Of a stretch of 64,000 nt of DNA, positions 26,932 through 50,676 are shown in pieces. The stretch spans positions 62,001 to 126,000 of IMG/VR virus record IMGVR_UViG_3300025785_001096, one strand, 5' to 3'. This DNA comes from a virus. The notes beneath the pieces are model-generated. The model was given only the letters and a program-made list of their open reading frames with translations. It was not told the DNA's origin and ran no database searches. The position numbers and the translations under genes are program-made. The number at the start of each line of letters is the position of its first letter. The first letter of the stretch is position 1.

Positions 26932-27522
26932 ATGCCTAATCTAGTACCTATTGTTCTCGAAAAAACCGCCAATGGCGAACGTTCATACGACATATACTCA
27001 CGACTGTTAAAAGACCGCATTGTGATGCTGGATACCGAAGTAAACGAGCACACTTCTAGTCTACTGGTAGCACAGTTGTTATTTTTAGAAAGCGAAAATC
27101 CCGATGCAGACATCCTATTCTACATTAATAGCCCCGGTGGTAGCGTTACAGCAGGTATGGCGATATACGATACACTACAGTTTATCAAGCCTGATGTCAG
27201 CACCATTGTGATGGGGCAGGCTTGCAGTATGGGCAGTCTACTGAGTACAGCCGGAGCTGCAGGCAAACGATTCATACTGCCACACGCTCGTCATATGATT
27301 CACCAACCGTCGGGCGGGGCTCGTGGACAAGCAACCGATATTCAGATCCAAGCACAAGAAATCTTGAAAATGAAACATTACTTGACCGAAATTTATGTCA
27401 AGCACAACTCTGCAGGCAAAACCTACGACGAATTTGCAGCCGATATGGAACGAGACTTCTTTATGAATGCCGAAGAAGCAGTAGCATACGGTTTGGTAGA
27501 CCGGATCATCACAAAACGGTAA
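26932..27522 (+). CDS. clpP: ATP-dependent Clp protease proteolytic subunit
   Basis: A 196-aa ClpP with an intact catalytic triad: Ser99 in GQACSMGS, His124 in HMIHQPSGG and Asp175 in MERDFFM. Length and the Y-I-N-S-P-G-G-S-V substrate groove match cellular ClpP. It forms a tetradecameric chamber fed by ClpX or ClpA. No Clp ATPase gene is visible here, so it would use host unfoldases or act as a prohead-type protease. A tmRNA in the same window tags proteins for exactly this protease. Ribosome site AGAGGA. Confidence 0.95.
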
Positions 27523-29465: not shown

Positions 29466-29921
29466 ATGCGATTTAGTGATTTCCAACAACCAAGAAAATT
29501 AATCCCAGGAAATATTCCACGAAAATATTCTAGCGGTGGTTTTACTTTTAACTTTGATCCAGCCACAAAAGTTATTTCGGTTACCTATGGCGGCAAACGT
29601 ATAGGTAAGTTCAATTATAAAGGTCTTGGTATAAACGATTATCAAAATGTTACCGACAGAATCATAAGACAATTTAGCCACTATCAACAAAAAAAGATAG
29701 ATGCTATAAACGCAAAAAAACAACCATATAACCATCCGATACAACCAAATTACACTGATCAAAATAGTTACAACATAGCTTTGCCCGGTGATATTCAAAG
29801 CCAGATATTTCAGCAACACGACGTAGATACAGCACAACATGGTGATGTTGATGTAGTAAATCCAGGCAAATGGAGTGCTATAAGAAAAAGACAAAAACAG
29901 CAAGATCAAAATGAGATATAA
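29466..29921 (+). CDS. Unknown protein with capsid-targeting-like N-terminus
   Basis: A 151-aa protein starting MRFSDFQQPRKL. Residues ~25-65 form beta-strands (GGFTFNFDPATKVISVTYGG) and the rest is polar and Gln-rich. The N-terminal pattern M-R-F-x-[DE]-F recurs in three following genes and resembles the T4 capsid-targeting sequence MKTYQEFIAE. If it works the same way the protein is packaged inside the head. No enzymatic motif. It overlaps the next gene by 11 nt. Confidence 0.55.
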   Translation: MRFSDFQQPRKLIPGNIPRKYSSGGFTFNFDPATKVISVTYGGKRIGKFNYKGLGINDYQNVTDRIIRQFSHYQQKKIDAINAKKQPYNHPIQPNYTDQNSYNIALPGDIQSQIFQQHDVDTAQHGDVDVVNPGKWSAIRKRQKQQDQNEI

Positions 29922-32724
29922 ACAGCTACTATCCGAACAACAGTTAGACGAAATTCGTATGAGTCCCGGCTCGTTACGAGCATTTGCTGCCAGCCCCGAA
30001 GCTCGAGGAATTATGGCCGGTTTTGAAGCTGAACTGGTATTTACAGGCCTAGGTGGCGAACCTGAATACGATCAAGATCCCGAACCTGACTACGATGCCG
30101 ACGAGCGTTGCAGCAGTCTTGATCAGGTAGTAGAATTTTTCCAAAACGACGAATACGGCTGGGGATTGAGTGATCGTCAAGCTAATCGTTTACGTGAAGA
30201 TCTAGATGAAAAATACTACGAGTGGTATGATTCACAACTGTATGATTCCTGGCGCGACCAACGCGATGACCTGATCAAAGATGCCTGGTTAGAAGAAAAA
30301 CCTTGGAGTGAGCGCATACACGCCGCCTTGGTTGATGGACTAGAACTTAGTGACGAACAAGCCGACGCTGTTCAAGCATTGCACGACCGTAGAGAAAAGG
30401 GCGAGATCAAAGGTTCAGAAATGAATGATACCGAGCTAGAAATGATCAGCCAATACAGCGAAGCTCGTAGCATTGCCGAAGATATTTTAAACGACGATGT
30501 TGAACAGACCCTGGACAAAGAAGACGGCTTCTATGATGAAGTATTAGACCAATTTCGTAACGACTTTTACATTGACGATGACTCGGGTTTCTTCAGTGAT
30601 GTAGGACTGCGCTGGCTGAGCGACGTGGCCAACGAATACGATTTGACGTGGCCGGTGGTCACTTACACCGGCAGTAGCAGCGAAGGCGGTTGGAGTGATG
30701 AAAATGCCGAACGCTTGGCTGACGACCTACACGAACGCTTGGGTGTTAAGACCAAAGTGTCTGGTGGTTACCATTCGGCCACACGTGATGACAAGACTTG
30801 GATTTTTGAACCCGACTCCAGCTTGGACGCAGACGAATCAGACAACTTGGCTATAGAAATTGTCAGCCCGCCAATGCCGTTAGAGACTTGCTTGCGTTTT
30901 ATGGAAGACTTTTTTGAATGGGCCGAGGACAACGGCGCTTACAGCAACAGCTCAACCGGTTTCCATATGGGCGTGAGCCTGCCACATCGTGGTGGTGATG
31001 TTGACTATGTTAAATTGGCCCTGTTCTTGGGCGACGAACACGTGTTACAGGAATTTGGTCGTGCCGGTAACAGTTTCTGCGAAGCCGCAATGAAAAAGAT
31101 TCGCAATCGAGTCAAAGGCAACAAAGAAGCGGTAGGTAGCGCATTGACCTTGATGCGTAGTAATCTATTAGAGTTGGCACAAAAAGCTCTAGAGATCAAC
31201 AATCACGGATTTGGCAAGTATACCAGTATCAATCCCAAAGGCGGTACAGACAGTACACACCCACACAAGGAACGTGGTGCCAAGTACATTGAGTTTCGTA
31301 GTGCTGGTGGATCAAATTATTTTGAAGACATTGACAAATTAAAAAATACCTTGTTGCGTTATGCCAAGGCCATGACTGTGGCTGCCAATCCGGCTGCTGA
31401 ACGCAAAGAATACTACAAGAAGTTATACAAACTTATTAGTCCACCCGACGGTGATGCCAGTTTGGATTTGTTTGCTAGATTTGCTACCGGCGCTATTTCA
31501 AAAGAAGATCTCAAGAAGCAATGGGCTGAGAAACAGTTAGATGATGAACCCAAGGGCGATTGGAAAGTATACGATGCCAACGGAAAATATATCATTGGAC
31601 AGGACTATCACGGTTATACAAAATCTGAAGTATGGGAACGTGCTAAAAAGAAATTAAGTCCCGGCGGCAGTATGGAAGGTTTCCAAAAGGAATATCGAGT
31701 ATTACCAATGAAGAGTACCACTGGTGATTGGGAAGTATACAACAATGACACCGGCGAAACTTTAGAAATCTTACACGGCTACGCAACCAAGGGCGCGGCC
31801 GCCGACGCAGTATACGACAAGTATGTGACCAACCAGGGCATTGCATTTAATTTACGTCCGGCCGATCCTGAAACTCCAGAGCCAGAATTAACTCCCAGAG
31901 CCAAGTTGGCCAAACGTATCAAAGCACCCAAACCCAATTGGAATGTGGTGTATCGTCCTACTGGTCGTGTGATCGATGAGCTGATTAATGTTTCAAAAGA
32001 AGAAGCTCAAAAACTCTTGCACCACGTGGCCACCTTGCACGACTTTGACAGTATAGATGATCTAGAGCTACATAACCAAGCAGATGTACCAAATTCCAAT
32101 GACACAGATCCCGAGGATGAACCACACAAGTGGGAATTTTATCGTGCTGAAACAGGTGCAGTGATTGATACTGTAGACAATGCTTCCAAGAGTCAAGCCG
32201 AAATGGTGCGTAGAGATCTTGTGCGCAGATACGGTCATCCAGATGACAGCGTTCGTATGCGTACCGTACCTACAGATGCAAGCCGTGAACGTTACGATAG
32301 TCGTCAAGAACACAACCCAGTGGTCAATCAACCACCACAGCAATTTATAACACAACGTCCTGCCACTGGCGACTACTATGAAATACGTGGCGGTAGCGAT
32401 AATAGAATCTATGGTTTCTTGCCAACCATGCCAGGACAACCATCGCAGTTGCAGACTATAGTTACTGCTGCCAAACAATATGTGAATGACTTGACTGGTA
32501 GAGATGATGCGTATATACAATACCGTGCCGGAGATCCTGTGCAGGCTACAGCACCAAATGGTGTTCCGCTATGGCAAGTGTATGAACGTGACTCAGGACA
32601 CGTGGTACACGCATTTGCCGATCACGATCAACGTAGTGCCTGGTCTACAGCACAAACGTGGTTACGTGATCACGGTGCAGAAGATCCTAGCTTGTTTAGC
32701 TTACGTCCAATGATGAGTACATAA
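29911..32724 (+). CDS. Amidoligase-like protein with six C-terminal repeat modules
   Basis: A 937-aa protein. The N-terminus MRYKQLLSEQQLDE resembles a capsid-targeting peptide with an L-x-E cleavage site. After an acidic helical region, residues ~250-500 carry LAIEIVSPPMPLE, STGFHMGVSL and KYIEFRSAGGSNY, the pattern of putative amidoligases (glutamine-synthetase-like fold, making amide bonds on proteins or peptides). From about residue 550 there are six divergent modules of 55-80 aa, each opening W-x-V/F-Y-x-x-x-T/S-G and ending in a short R-x/L-R-P segment. Substrate unknown. Confidence 0.6.
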   Translation: MRYKQLLSEQQLDEIRMSPGSLRAFAASPEARGIMAGFEAELVFTGLGGEPEYDQDPEPDYDADERCSSLDQVVEFFQNDEYGWGLSDRQANRLREDLDEKYYEWYDSQLYDSWRDQRDDLIKDAWLEEKPWSERIHAALVDGLELSDEQADAVQALHDRREKGEIKGSEMNDTELEMISQYSEARSIAEDILNDDVEQTLDKEDGFYDEVLDQFRNDFYIDDDSGFFSDVGLRWLSDVANEYDLTWPVVTYTGSSSEGGWSDENAERLADDLHERLGVKTKVSGGYHSATRDDKTWIFEPDSSLDADESDNLAIEIVSPPMPLETCLRFMEDFFEWAEDNGAYSNSSTGFHMGVSLPHRGGDVDYVKLALFLGDEHVLQEFGRAGNSFCEAAMKKIRNRVKGNKEAVGSALTLMRSNLLELAQKALEINNHGFGKYTSINPKGGTDSTHPHKERGAKYIEFRSAGGSNYFEDIDKLKNTLLRYAKAMTVAANPAAERKEYYKKLYKLISPPDGDASLDLFARFATGAISKEDLKKQWAEKQLDDEPKGDWKVYDANGKYIIGQDYHGYTKSEVWERAKKKLSPGGSMEGFQKEYRVLPMKSTTGDWEVYNNDTGETLEILHGYATKGAAADAVYDKYVTNQGIAFNLRPADPETPEPELTPRAKLAKRIKAPKPNWNVVYRPTGRVIDELINVSKEEAQKLLHHVATLHDFDSIDDLELHNQADVPNSNDTDPEDEPHKWEFYRAETGAVIDTVDNASKSQAEMVRRDLVRRYGHPDDSVRMRTVPTDASRERYDSRQEHNPVVNQPPQQFITQRPATGDYYEIRGGSDNRIYGFLPTMPGQPSQLQTIVTAAKQYVNDLTGRDDAYIQYRAGDPVQATAPNGVPLWQVYERDSGHVVHAFADHDQRSAWSTAQTWLRDHGAEDPSLFSLRPMMST
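31558..32710 (+). repeat. Six divergent protein modules
   Basis: Modules begin near residues 550, 605, 675, 738, 819 and 886 of the amidoligase-like protein (GDWKVYDANGK, GDWEVYNNDTG, PNWNVVYRPTG, HKWEFYRAETG, GDYYEIRGG, PLWQVYERDSG). They are similar at protein level only. A seventh copy lies in the next gene at about residue 115 (KGYEIYHADRPAG). Confidence 0.75.
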
Positions 32725-35350: not shown

Positions 35351-35379
35351 TTGACTCAAAATTTGAAATAATCTATAAT
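35351..35379 (+). promoter_or_regulatory. Early-type promoter
   Basis: TTGACT, 17 nt, TATAAT, upstream of the 35417 gene. Divergent from the late promoter at 35294. Confidence 0.85.
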
Positions 35380-36604: not shown

Positions 36605-36633
36605 TTGACTCTAAATTCGAATTAACTTATAAT
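36605..36633 (+). promoter_or_regulatory. Early-type promoter
   Basis: TTGACT, 17 nt, TATAAT, 69 nt before the ATG at 36702. Confidence 0.85.
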
Positions 36634-36701
36634 ATGAAATATGTTGGAGTGTGTCCAGCATAATTTAACTGTAGTTTTTAACTTAAATGGAGTGTTTTAA
36701 A

Positions 36702-37028
36702 ATGGATAAATTGTTCAAAGTTGGTGGCGTTTCTAAGACTAAAGGTCAATACAAAGTGCGTTTCGCATCTGATATGACTCGTGTCAAGATCTTGGCCAAG
36801 ACTGATAGTGATATCAATCTTGTTGAGTTGCCAAAAGCAATGACCAAGCCAGAATTGGTAACTTTCTTGAAAGGTACTGATTTGTATGCTAACGGTAATT
36901 ACCGTGCAGCTATCGATGCAGCTGATGCCAAGTACAATGGTACCGTATCTGCCAAAGCTGGTAAAGTCAAGCCAAGCCTTGATGCTATCAAAGCTCGTGC
37001 AACAGCCAAAGACGCTGTAGCTGAGTAA
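36702..37028 (+). CDS. Unknown basic protein
   Basis: A 108-aa Lys/Ala-rich protein (KTKGQYKVRFASDMTRVKIL, then a helical Ala-rich C-terminus). Start chosen after GGAG; an ATG at 36687 is weaker. The basic N-terminal half could bind nucleic acid. It is followed directly by a structured, non-coding stretch. Confidence 0.55.
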   Translation: MDKLFKVGGVSKTKGQYKVRFASDMTRVKILAKTDSDINLVELPKAMTKPELVTFLKGTDLYANGNYRAAIDAADAKYNGTVSAKAGKVKPSLDAIKARATAKDAVAE

Positions 37029-37033
37029 TACTC

Positions 37034-37218
37034 GTAAGGGCATCGCTGGGAAGCGTATTAGCCCCTTACTATCAGCAAGTGTTTGAGACGGAAACATAGG
37101 TATCGTTGGCAGACGTGTCAACTATGCGGGCCTAACTGGCGTGGAACAGGTCCTAACATAACTAGCCATACGCTATTGCCGGGAAGCACCCGACGCATAA
37201 ATTGGCACTCGAACACTT
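37034..37218 (+). ncRNA. Candidate structured RNA upstream of tmRNA
   Basis: No good reading frame is found from 37029 to 37226. Two closed elements are visible. GTAAGGG (37034) pairs with CCCTTAC (37063), around a CGCT-GGGA-AGCG hairpin. AAGTGTTTGAG (37077) pairs with CTCGAACACTT (37208), 11 bp with one G-U, enclosing ~120 nt. The enclosed part holds TTGGCA/TGTCAA, GGGCCT/AGGTCC, CGGG/CCCG and ATGCG/CGCAT stems. No T-run follows, so it is not a simple terminator. Confidence 0.5.
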
Positions 37219-37226
37219 ACTAATAG

Positions 37227-37234
37227 TATAAATA
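37227..37234 (+). promoter_or_regulatory. T4-consensus late promoter
   Basis: Exact TATAAATA. The base 6 nt downstream is the A of an ATG (37240), predicting a leaderless message that could continue into the tmRNA. Confidence 0.6.
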
Positions 37235-37239
37235 TGATT

Positions 37240-37320
37240 ATGACATATTTAGCCTGTTTGATCGCTGTAGCAGTTTTACTCTATGTAATGATAGAGATAA
37301 AAAACTGGTTGGATTTTTAA
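37240..37320 (+). CDS. Tiny membrane peptide, leaderless
   Basis: 26 aa, mainly one membrane helix (LACLIAVAVLLYVMIEI). An ATG six bases earlier (37234) falls inside the TATAAATA box, so 37240 is the likelier start. No ribosome site. It is the only frame between the structured RNA and the tmRNA. Confidence 0.4.
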   Translation: MTYLACLIAVAVLLYVMIEIKNWLDF

Positions 37321-37321
37321 A

Positions 37322-37667
37322 GAATTGTTGTAACTCCTTTAGAGTGAAGGCATTGCGGACGTGGGTGCGATTCCCACCACCTCCACCTAAACGTATTGTT
37401 GATCTGGGACACGAAGTCGTGCAGTTAGTCTAAGATCCCATTGTTTAGTGGGTACACAGGGGCAGATCCTGTACAGTATGTTTAGTTGGGGGTGACTAGT
37501 TTCGACGTGGTGAGATAGCAACGAAGGCAACAGGACAGAGCAGTCCAAAAAACTAAAAAAAGTAAACGCAAACGACTCACAGTTCGCATTGGCAGCCTAA
37601 GGGCCGCCTAGGGCAGGAAATGCCTCGTAACAGAAACAACCATTGTGTTGCCTAAAAACAACACCTT
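37322..37667 (+). ncRNA. ssrA: Circularly permuted (two-piece) tmRNA
   Basis: tmRNA rescues stalled ribosomes and tags the product for ClpP-type proteolysis. The acceptor piece comes first: T-stem GTGGG (37361) / CCCAC (37373) with a 7-nt loop, then 3' acceptor strand CACCTCC (37378-37384), discriminator A and CC. About 100 nt later the coding piece begins with GGGGGTG (37488-37494), which pairs fully with that strand (one G-U), then ACTAGTTTCGACG, typical of a tmRNA 5' end. The tag frame 37568-37600 reads ANDSQFALAA then TAA. CTAAACGTA/TATGTTTAG closes the loop between pieces. The genome has CCT, not CCA, at the 3' end. Outer ends are approximate. Confidence 0.9.
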
Positions 37668-37694
37668 AAACCCCCTGAAAATGGGGGTTTTTGC
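37668..37694 (+). terminator. Rho-independent terminator of tmRNA
   Basis: AACCCCC / GGGGGTT with loop TGAAAAT and T-run. Confidence 0.9.
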
Positions 37695-49098: not shown

Positions 49099-50676
49099 AT
49101 GAAAGTTAAAAAAATTATTGTAGTAGGTGGTGGTACAGCAGGCTGGCTCAGTGCCGGTTTTATTGCTAGTCAATTGCCCGAAGTAGAAGTCACTGTGATT
49201 CACAGTAAGGATGTTCCAATTATTGGTGTTGGGGAAACTACGGTACCGCAGTTCCGCAATCACTTGGAAAAAATGGGTCTACACGAAGATCTATGGTTGC
49301 GTGAGTCAGGCAGCACATTCAAGTACGGTGTTACCTTTGACAACTGGCGTACTGGGTCAGACACACGTTGGCACGGATTTGGCGATTTTGTTACAGAAAA
49401 AGGTATCAGCCATAGTATGGACGAGTTTGGCAAACGTGTTAGCTGTGCCAAGGACGATTCAGTATTGATAGCCGACTACTGGATTGAAATGCTCAAACGT
49501 GGCATTGTTACCGAAGAGGATTACTATCAATATGCGTCAGATACGTATCATTTGGTTCAGAATCGCCGAGCACACAGAAACCTAGCGGGACACCAGTATT
49601 CGAGCCGTGTGCCGGGCTATGCTTATAATATCAACGCATTCAAAGTGGGACAAACTATCAAGAACCACGTGGCCATCCCGGCTGGGGTAAAGACCCTGGA
49701 ACGTCACATTGTTCAAGTGCTACGCAACGAGCGTGAAGAAGTAACAGGTATTGTAGACGATGGCGGGGAAACACATACCGCAGACTTGTACATTGACTGC
49801 ACCGGCTTCAAGCGACTACTGATTGGTCCTGTGGGCAAATGGATCAGTTACGAGGATCGACTGCCGTGTAAGAATGCTATTGGTGGACGTGTAAACTATC
49901 AAGGACGCGAAGCAGAATTCTGTGTACCTAACCTACACGCTACAGCATTCAACCACGGTTGGTCGTGGCGTGTTCCCTTACGTGATGACTTGGGTTCGGG
50001 CTATGTGTACGATACACGTTTCACCACAACTGAACAGGCCATAGAAGAGTTGTCGGCATACTGGCAGAACCTCGGCTTGGAGTGGGATCATAAAGTTACT
50101 TTGACATTTGACAACGGTATCCTGGATCGTTCGGCACACCGTAACGTGATTGCCTGCGGACTCAGTTCAAACTTCCTGGAGCCCCTGGAAGCCACAAGTA
50201 TTAGCTTTACTACGCTAATCAACGAATTGGTTGTGGCAGTACTTAAAAAGCACGACTGCCATTGGAATGACGGTGAGGATCGTGTGTTAAGTCGTTTAAT
50301 GAGCCGTGAAGTCAAGATCACCGGTGACTTCTTGTGGGCACACTATGCCTTGACCGAACGTTCAGATACAGAGTTCTGGCGCGAGCAAGCCGGTAAGCGT
50401 GAGGAAGCAGTTGATATGGTACACGGTTGGTTTGGTCGTCACTTTAGCGATATCTATCGTAGAGAAAAAGACTTTGACCACACACGCTACAACAAGTATG
50501 ACTGGGCGCAGACCATTACCACTATGCGAATATTTGATGGTTGCCCTACTCGTGAGATCAATGAAGCCTTATTACCACGTGCTCGTCTATGGTATCAACA
50601 CAGAGATGAAATGACTCGCGGTGTATTAGATCTTGTGCCAACGCACTGGGAATTGATTCAACATATCAACAGATAA
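49099..50676 (+). CDS. FADH2-dependent tryptophan-type halogenase
   Basis: A 525-aa flavin halogenase. FAD-binding GGGTAGW (10-16), GVGETTVP, catalytic Lys75 in STFKYGVTF (as Lys79 of PrnA), the halogenase signature G-W-x-W-x-V-P (about 288-294) and NFLEPLEATSI are all present. These enzymes make HOCl or HOBr from FADH2, O2 and halide and pass it to the lysine to halogenate an aromatic ring, often tryptophan. Substrate and flavin reductase are unknown; none is nearby. Relatives are reported from aquatic phages. Ribosome site AGGAAG. Confidence 0.9.
   Translation: MKVKKIIVVGGGTAGWLSAGFIASQLPEVEVTVIHSKDVPIIGVGETTVPQFRNHLEKMGLHEDLWLRESGSTFKYGVTFDNWRTGSDTRWHGFGDFVTEKGISHSMDEFGKRVSCAKDDSVLIADYWIEMLKRGIVTEEDYYQYASDTYHLVQNRRAHRNLAGHQYSSRVPGYAYNINAFKVGQTIKNHVAIPAGVKTLERHIVQVLRNEREEVTGIVDDGGETHTADLYIDCTGFKRLLIGPVGKWISYEDRLPCKNAIGGRVNYQGREAEFCVPNLHATAFNHGWSWRVPLRDDLGSGYVYDTRFTTTEQAIEELSAYWQNLGLEWDHKVTLTFDNGILDRSAHRNVIACGLSSNFLEPLEATSISFTTLINELVVAVLKKHDCHWNDGEDRVLSRLMSREVKITGDFLWAHYALTERSDTEFWREQAGKREEAVDMVHGWFGRHFSDIYRREKDFDHTRYNKYDWAQTITTMRIFDGCPTREINEALLPRARLWYQHRDEMTRGVLDLVPTHWELIQHINR

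Follow-up and report, generated by a model that had tools for sequence, protein, structure and literature searches.

Can a phage carry a complete tmRNA of its own in the circularly permuted, two-piece form, and with it the means to rescue stalled ribosomes and degrade the tagged products? A tmRNA releases ribosomes that have stalled and marks their incomplete products for degradation. The question is raised by positions 37322-37694 of the stretch of DNA analysed here, a window of 64,000 nucleotides that corresponds to bases 62001-126000 of the 157,933 bp IMG/VR virus record G000. An original prediction, made from the sequence, placed a phage-encoded permuted tmRNA with the tag ANDSQFALAA at this locus. 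That the carrier is a phage, large and uncultured, is confirmed by the record itself and by the phage-type genes around the locus: the neighbours of the tmRNA match phage families (DNA ligase PHROG 114 and other PHROGs). Elsewhere, the contig encodes a DnaB-type helicase and ribonucleotide reductase of phage type.

Anatomy of the permuted tmRNA gene

ARAGORN calls a single gene in the 64-kb window, a permuted tmRNA at 37296-37691 on the plus strand with the tag ANDSQFALAA. Similarly, the Rfam permuted models, searched with cmscan, match the same region. The best-scoring Rfam family is RF01850 (beta_tmRNA), found at 37274-37668 with 137.8 bits and E=5.9e-42 and covered end to end (model 1-331), while RF04321 (tmRNA_permuted) matches at 37326-37600 with 125 bits and E=5.2e-24. 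Both matches are far over the gathering scores, which are 84 bits for RF01850 and 47 bits for RF04321. ARAGORN, RF01850 and RF04321 thus agree on a complete, circularly permuted tmRNA, as the original prediction had claimed.

The order of the parts is permuted: the T-arm and the 3' acceptor strand come first, then an intervening sequence and then the 5' acceptor strand. All parts are on the plus strand. The acceptor piece (37326..37388; cmscan alignment, ARAGORN and covariation) contains a strand of the long helix (GTTGT...), the D-analogue strand CATTGCG, the T-arm (37361-37377), the 3' acceptor strand CACCTCC (37378-37384), the discriminator A (37385) and an encoded CCT (37386-37388). It is followed by the 99-nt intervening sequence (37389..37487, assigned by position and fold). 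The 5' tRNA-like half (37488..37513; ARAGORN, Rfam and covariation) consists of the 5' acceptor strand GGGGGTG (37488-37494), the TTTCGAC loop and the D-analogue strand CGTGGTG. The tag frame found by ARAGORN, GCA AAC GAC TCA CAG TTC GCA TTG GCA GCC TAA (37568..37600, stop included), encodes ANDSQFALAA*, a tag with a C-terminus of the ClpXP/ClpAP type followed by a stop codon. The 3' end of the mRNA-like piece, GGGCAGGAAATGCCTCGTAACAGAAAC (37601..37668), is kept in related phages according to blastn among the phage loci, and a scan identifies an intrinsic-terminator-like hairpin with a T run at 37672..37692.

All seven of the seven pairs of the acceptor stem GGGGGTG/CACCTCC form, with a G-U at pair 3 and A as the discriminator. 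Both the loop of about 100 nt and the fully pairing 7-bp stem of the original prediction are therefore present. In the predicted precursor fold the intervening sequence forms a hairpin that prolongs the acceptor helix, and we infer that these 99 nt are removed.

The encoded CCT had been regarded as odd and as implying 3' repair. It is indeed uncommon, as CCA is encoded in 98 of the about 108 permuted tmRNAs that were read, some of which are duplicate loci. Ends other than CCA are CCT in the phage under study and in L147, CCG in L132, L153 and L219, and CCC in L082. The RF01850 beta consensus reads ACCc at the 3' end, and the tmRNA database remarks that CCA is not always encoded at this position (PMC11915505). 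Given these other endings, the consensus and the database remark, completion of the CCT end by a nucleotidyltransferase is expected, so the repair stands but the strangeness does not.

Conservation of the tmRNA, its tags and its surroundings

A permuted tmRNA scores over the cut-off in 37 of 50 phage records that have the adjoining 113-aa gene described below. Conserved pairing among related phages, which had been set as a test of the original prediction, was counted for four helices in 19 distinct phage tmRNA sequences. The T stem is paired in 95/95 cells, the acceptor stem in 133/133 and the D-analogue helix in 132/133; together these three helices are paired in 360 of 361 cells and contain 70 double-change cells. 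The long helix is paired at its base in 75/95 cells, with an alignment that fails there for one of the two subgroups, so that this helix is only partly confirmed. Over all four helices there are 95 double-change cells, compared with a mean of 31 and a maximum of 46 in shuffles, which ignore relatedness.

Every one of the 19 sequences has G-U as its third acceptor pair, and a G-U pair at this position is an identity element for charging with alanine. The compensated acceptor stems include GGGGGTG/CACCTCC, GGGGATG/CATCTCC, GGGCCTG/CAGGTCC and GGGTCCG/CGGATCC, a variety that would be difficult to account for if pairing were not selected. The covariation shows that two-piece tmRNAs are maintained by selection in phages. 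Together with the Rfam E-values it also excludes a chance origin of the tmRNA. We conclude that positions 37322-37694 hold a real, conserved tmRNA gene that is probably functional.

Permuted tmRNAs are common in viral contigs, since the pattern of permuted T-arm and acceptor strand occurs in at least 120 stretches there, and most of those listed are called tmRNA by ARAGORN. Two related contigs, L135 and L138 (G005 and G008), have only weak permuted-tmRNA matches of 22-42 bits, two per contig; these are possibly degenerate or divergent tmRNAs. An exact search for the 3' motif GGGCAGGAAATGCCTCGTAACAGAAAC in 84,980 bacterial and archaeal genomes gave nothing, so the motif does not reveal the host. 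The short MAG contig L223, which was found by the tag pattern, was considered as a lead to the host and rejected: in the order to which it is assigned, a permuted tmRNA scores over the cut-off in just 2 of 79 genomes, and L223 probably belongs to a phage and was binned wrongly.

The related phage tmRNAs keep the tag frame and, mostly, a -LAA-type end, but differ in the middle of the tag. Much longer tags, of 28-33 residues, are found in the permuted tmRNAs of L132, L152, L156, L159/L160, L172, L179, L225, L228 and L231-L234. Examples are ANANTNGTVKVTVSKAAFFGRVAANDSAVLLAA and AKASTNGSFKFSGKGVKLASARREAVLA, and motifs such as GTVKVTVSKAAFFGR and GSFKFSGKGVKLASARREAV are common to the long tags. 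In some relatives the long tag finishes with an ordinary AANDS..LLAA tag, so the long tags look like N-terminal extensions. Between L159 and L172 the codon changes in the long tag are 7 synonymous and 3 non-synonymous. A tblastn search of the long-tag peptides against the phage collection gave no match.

The surroundings of the tmRNA, all features again on the plus strand, start with a predicted sigma-70-type promoter, TTGACT-17-TATAAT (36605..36633, 11/12 in a consensus scan), upstream of a gene for a 113-aa protein (36687..37028). This promoter is likely the start of the unit containing the tmRNA, and judged from sequence the promoter at 36605 and the terminator-like hairpin at 37672 likely frame a transcription unit. 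The 113-aa ORF has 155 relatives among viral contigs, is conserved as a marker gene beside the tmRNA in large phages and has no PHROG or Pfam match. A putative ORF for a 28-aa peptide with a single membrane helix, MIMTYLACLIAVAVLLYVMIEIKNWLDF, was read from the sequence at 37234..37320 and ends at the 5' edge of the tmRNA.

The interval that separates the tmRNA from the 113-aa gene contains a conserved structured RNA of ~160 nt (37068..37234), identified by alignment, fold, pair counts and a model of its own, which it matches with 124.3 bits. Over a set of 29 diverse phage sequences, pairing holds in 98.0% of the cells and double-change cells number 143; shuffles give 44 and slid controls 14-26. 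Neither Rfam nor the phage collection yielded a match. Its core pattern is present in 54 viral contigs, with most of the examined copies among tRNA genes of large phages; it also occurs in L133, L135, L140, L195 and L236-L288. We consider it a candidate new RNA family. We rejected the idea that it belongs to the tmRNA, as copies occur in tRNA arrays of phages with no tmRNA nearby. This upstream RNA and the tags of 28-33 residues may matter more than the tmRNA itself.

A promoter-like module, e.g. TTGACCCAAAATTGCCAAAATGCTATAAT, precedes successive small genes at window positions 35351, 35657, 36605, 37710 and 38006, and stretches similar to it recur in related phages; between 35200 and 38800, 22 promoter-like sites are found vs 7.7 expected. 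Further away in the window, a 937-aa protein (29911-32724) has a weak match to an amidoligase domain (PF12224) and no relatives among viral contigs, and a tryptophan-halogenase-like gene (49099-50676, PHROG 2928) is 25-31% identical to cyanophage genes.

Partner proteins and the proposed mechanism

The original prediction also held that the phage would have its own ribosome rescue and its own degradation tag. The tag is there, on a tmRNA with a proteolysis signal, but the rescue part is incomplete: SmpB (PF01668) was found neither in the phage contig nor in 50 related records, many of them fragments, by a search that was positive in 10/14 control genomes. The host must therefore supply SmpB, and the activity of the tmRNA depends on host SmpB accepting the phage RNA. 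The rescue system of the phage is thus not self-contained, while the degradation step may be.

For the degradation step, the window encodes a canonical ClpP of 196 aa (26932..27522, plus strand; PF00574, NF001368) with the catalytic residues Ser (GQACSMG), His (MIHQP) and Asp (ERD). It scores 269 bits with PF00574 and 306 bits with NF001368, over the cut-off, and the solved chains closest to it are ClpP. It is much nearer to true ClpP (306 bits) than to the ClpP-like prohead proteases (about 100 bits). Outside the window, at 148982-151267 of the contig (L009:8982-11267), lies a gene for a ClpA-like unfoldase of 761 aa; no other AAA_2 protein was found in the contig. The unfoldase matches nearly the whole of TIGR02639 with 830 bits; as this is below the equivalog cut-off of 993, we term the protein ClpA-like and not a proven orthologue. 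It bears two Walker A motifs and a sequence, NIGFG, which we take to resemble the ClpP-docking loop, and it is the likely partner of the phage ClpP. The suggestion that the ALAA end fits ClpXP and that the genome carries ClpP holds for ClpP; with a ClpA-like protein instead of ClpX as the sole AAA_2 protein, the phage-encoded route would be ClpAP, and ClpXP would be that of the host.

Among 24 related records tested for the trio, the tmRNA is present in 20, ClpP in 15, ClpA in 11 and all three in 7; in the related contigs >250 kb that were tested, the trio is complete in 5/5. The tmRNA and ClpP are 2.5-18 kb apart in 13 records. The phage also encodes GroEL and DnaJ (L002:14374-15993 and L009:8115-8966), so that by sequence assignment ClpA-like protein, ClpP, GroEL and DnaJ make up an unusually full protein-quality-control set for a phage. 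A keyword search with partial coverage of the literature found no paper in which a tmRNA is described alongside ClpA and ClpP of a phage, and the link of a two-piece phage tmRNA with a phage-encoded ClpA-like protein and ClpP is made here.

We suggest that the locus works as a permuted ssrA gene of the phage, and consider this highly probable. The scheme starts from what the analysis gives directly, i.e., gene anatomy, conservation, compensatory pairing, the ClpP and ClpA-like genes and the absence of SmpB; maturation, charging, SmpB binding, tagging and degradation are drawn from the tmRNA family, and the benefit is deduced. The transcript would fold into the tRNA-like domain, and host tRNA-processing enzymes would remove the intervening loop, so that two RNAs remain, one the acceptor and one coding for the tag, joined by base pairs. 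Host nucleotidyltransferase would finish the 3' CCA and host alanyl-tRNA synthetase would charge the tmRNA via the G3-U pair. Host SmpB would then bring it into stalled ribosomes, where translation would restart on the GCA codon and ANDSQFALAA would be added. The tagged chains would go to ClpAP or ClpXP, to which the phage would add its own ClpP and ClpA-like unfoldase. The likely benefit would be free ribosomes and recycled amino acids while host mRNA is degraded during infection.

The same gene could instead act as a decoy that competes for SmpB and ribosomes and thereby weakens or redirects the host's trans-translation. This would resemble the tag-less tmRNA form of DS6A, which is reported to inhibit the cell's own tmRNA in E. 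coli (PMC11915505), and would suit a phage without SmpB. However, here the tag frame, resume site, stop and -ALAA end are complete, the relatives keep the frame, and ClpP and the ClpA-like protein fit productive tagging; we therefore regard a decoy as improbable. Even less probable is a non-functional remnant, either a captured host ssrA or an attachment-site copy from integration. Integration at tmRNA genes is common, and prophages are known to contain partial copies (PMC9004378), but this gene is full length, lies among phage genes in a contig with no tyrosine integrase (PF00589), has a 3' motif absent in exact form from the bacterial and archaeal genomes searched, and persists in many phages with compensatory changes. 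The covariation in particular largely refutes a remnant. Least probable of all is that host DNA was misassembled into the contig or mislabelled as viral. The contig is metagenomic, has no match to the terminase PF03237, and shows few structural PHROG matches; yet the neighbours and other contig genes match phage families, there are weak tail-fibre and virion-protein matches, and many independent viral contigs have this gene neighbourhood too.

Beyond the proposed working ssrA gene, it can be speculated that a lineage of large phages has its own tag-and-destroy pathway, for which the host gives only SmpB, alanyl-tRNA synthetase and processing enzymes, and that the tag was remodelled to 28-33 residues in some relatives. 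We hold this wider proposal only tentatively. Whether phages use machinery of their own for stalled ribosomes and protein recycling is now testable.

Relation to known systems

A phage-borne permuted tmRNA is not the first of its kind, since two-piece phage tmRNAs were published in 2022 (PMC9004378). The closest parallel in that work is the tmRNA of Melnitz (EXVC044M, an OM43 methylophage) and of SAR11 phages, where the ssrA is likewise permuted and complete and sits in a large phage with no integrase detected. It is carried by part of its phage lineage (17/47 contigs), and carriage is partial here as well. However, the Melnitz ssrA is of the alphaproteobacterial type and is reported with a glutamine riboswitch (PMC9004378), while the phage under study scores best as beta type and has an unrelated structured RNA upstream. 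A near-identity search over 24 kb gave no match to it in the phage collection.

Compared with the betaproteobacterial tmRNA (RF01850), the likeness consists of the end-to-end model match and a tag of the AND..FALAA type. The differences are that the gene is phage-encoded, has a long intervening sequence of 99 nt, departs from the model in the last hairpin and does not encode CCA. Translation-rescue genes, tmRNA included, are likewise part of the suites of huge phages (PMC7162821); SmpB is reported among those genomes, while it is absent in the phage under study and its 50 relatives. The mycobacteriophage DS6A also encodes a tmRNA homologue, but one that lacks a tag frame and inhibits the host tmRNA (PMC11915505), whereas the gene described here has a full tag frame and extends the phage two-piece tmRNAs to a beta-type lineage.
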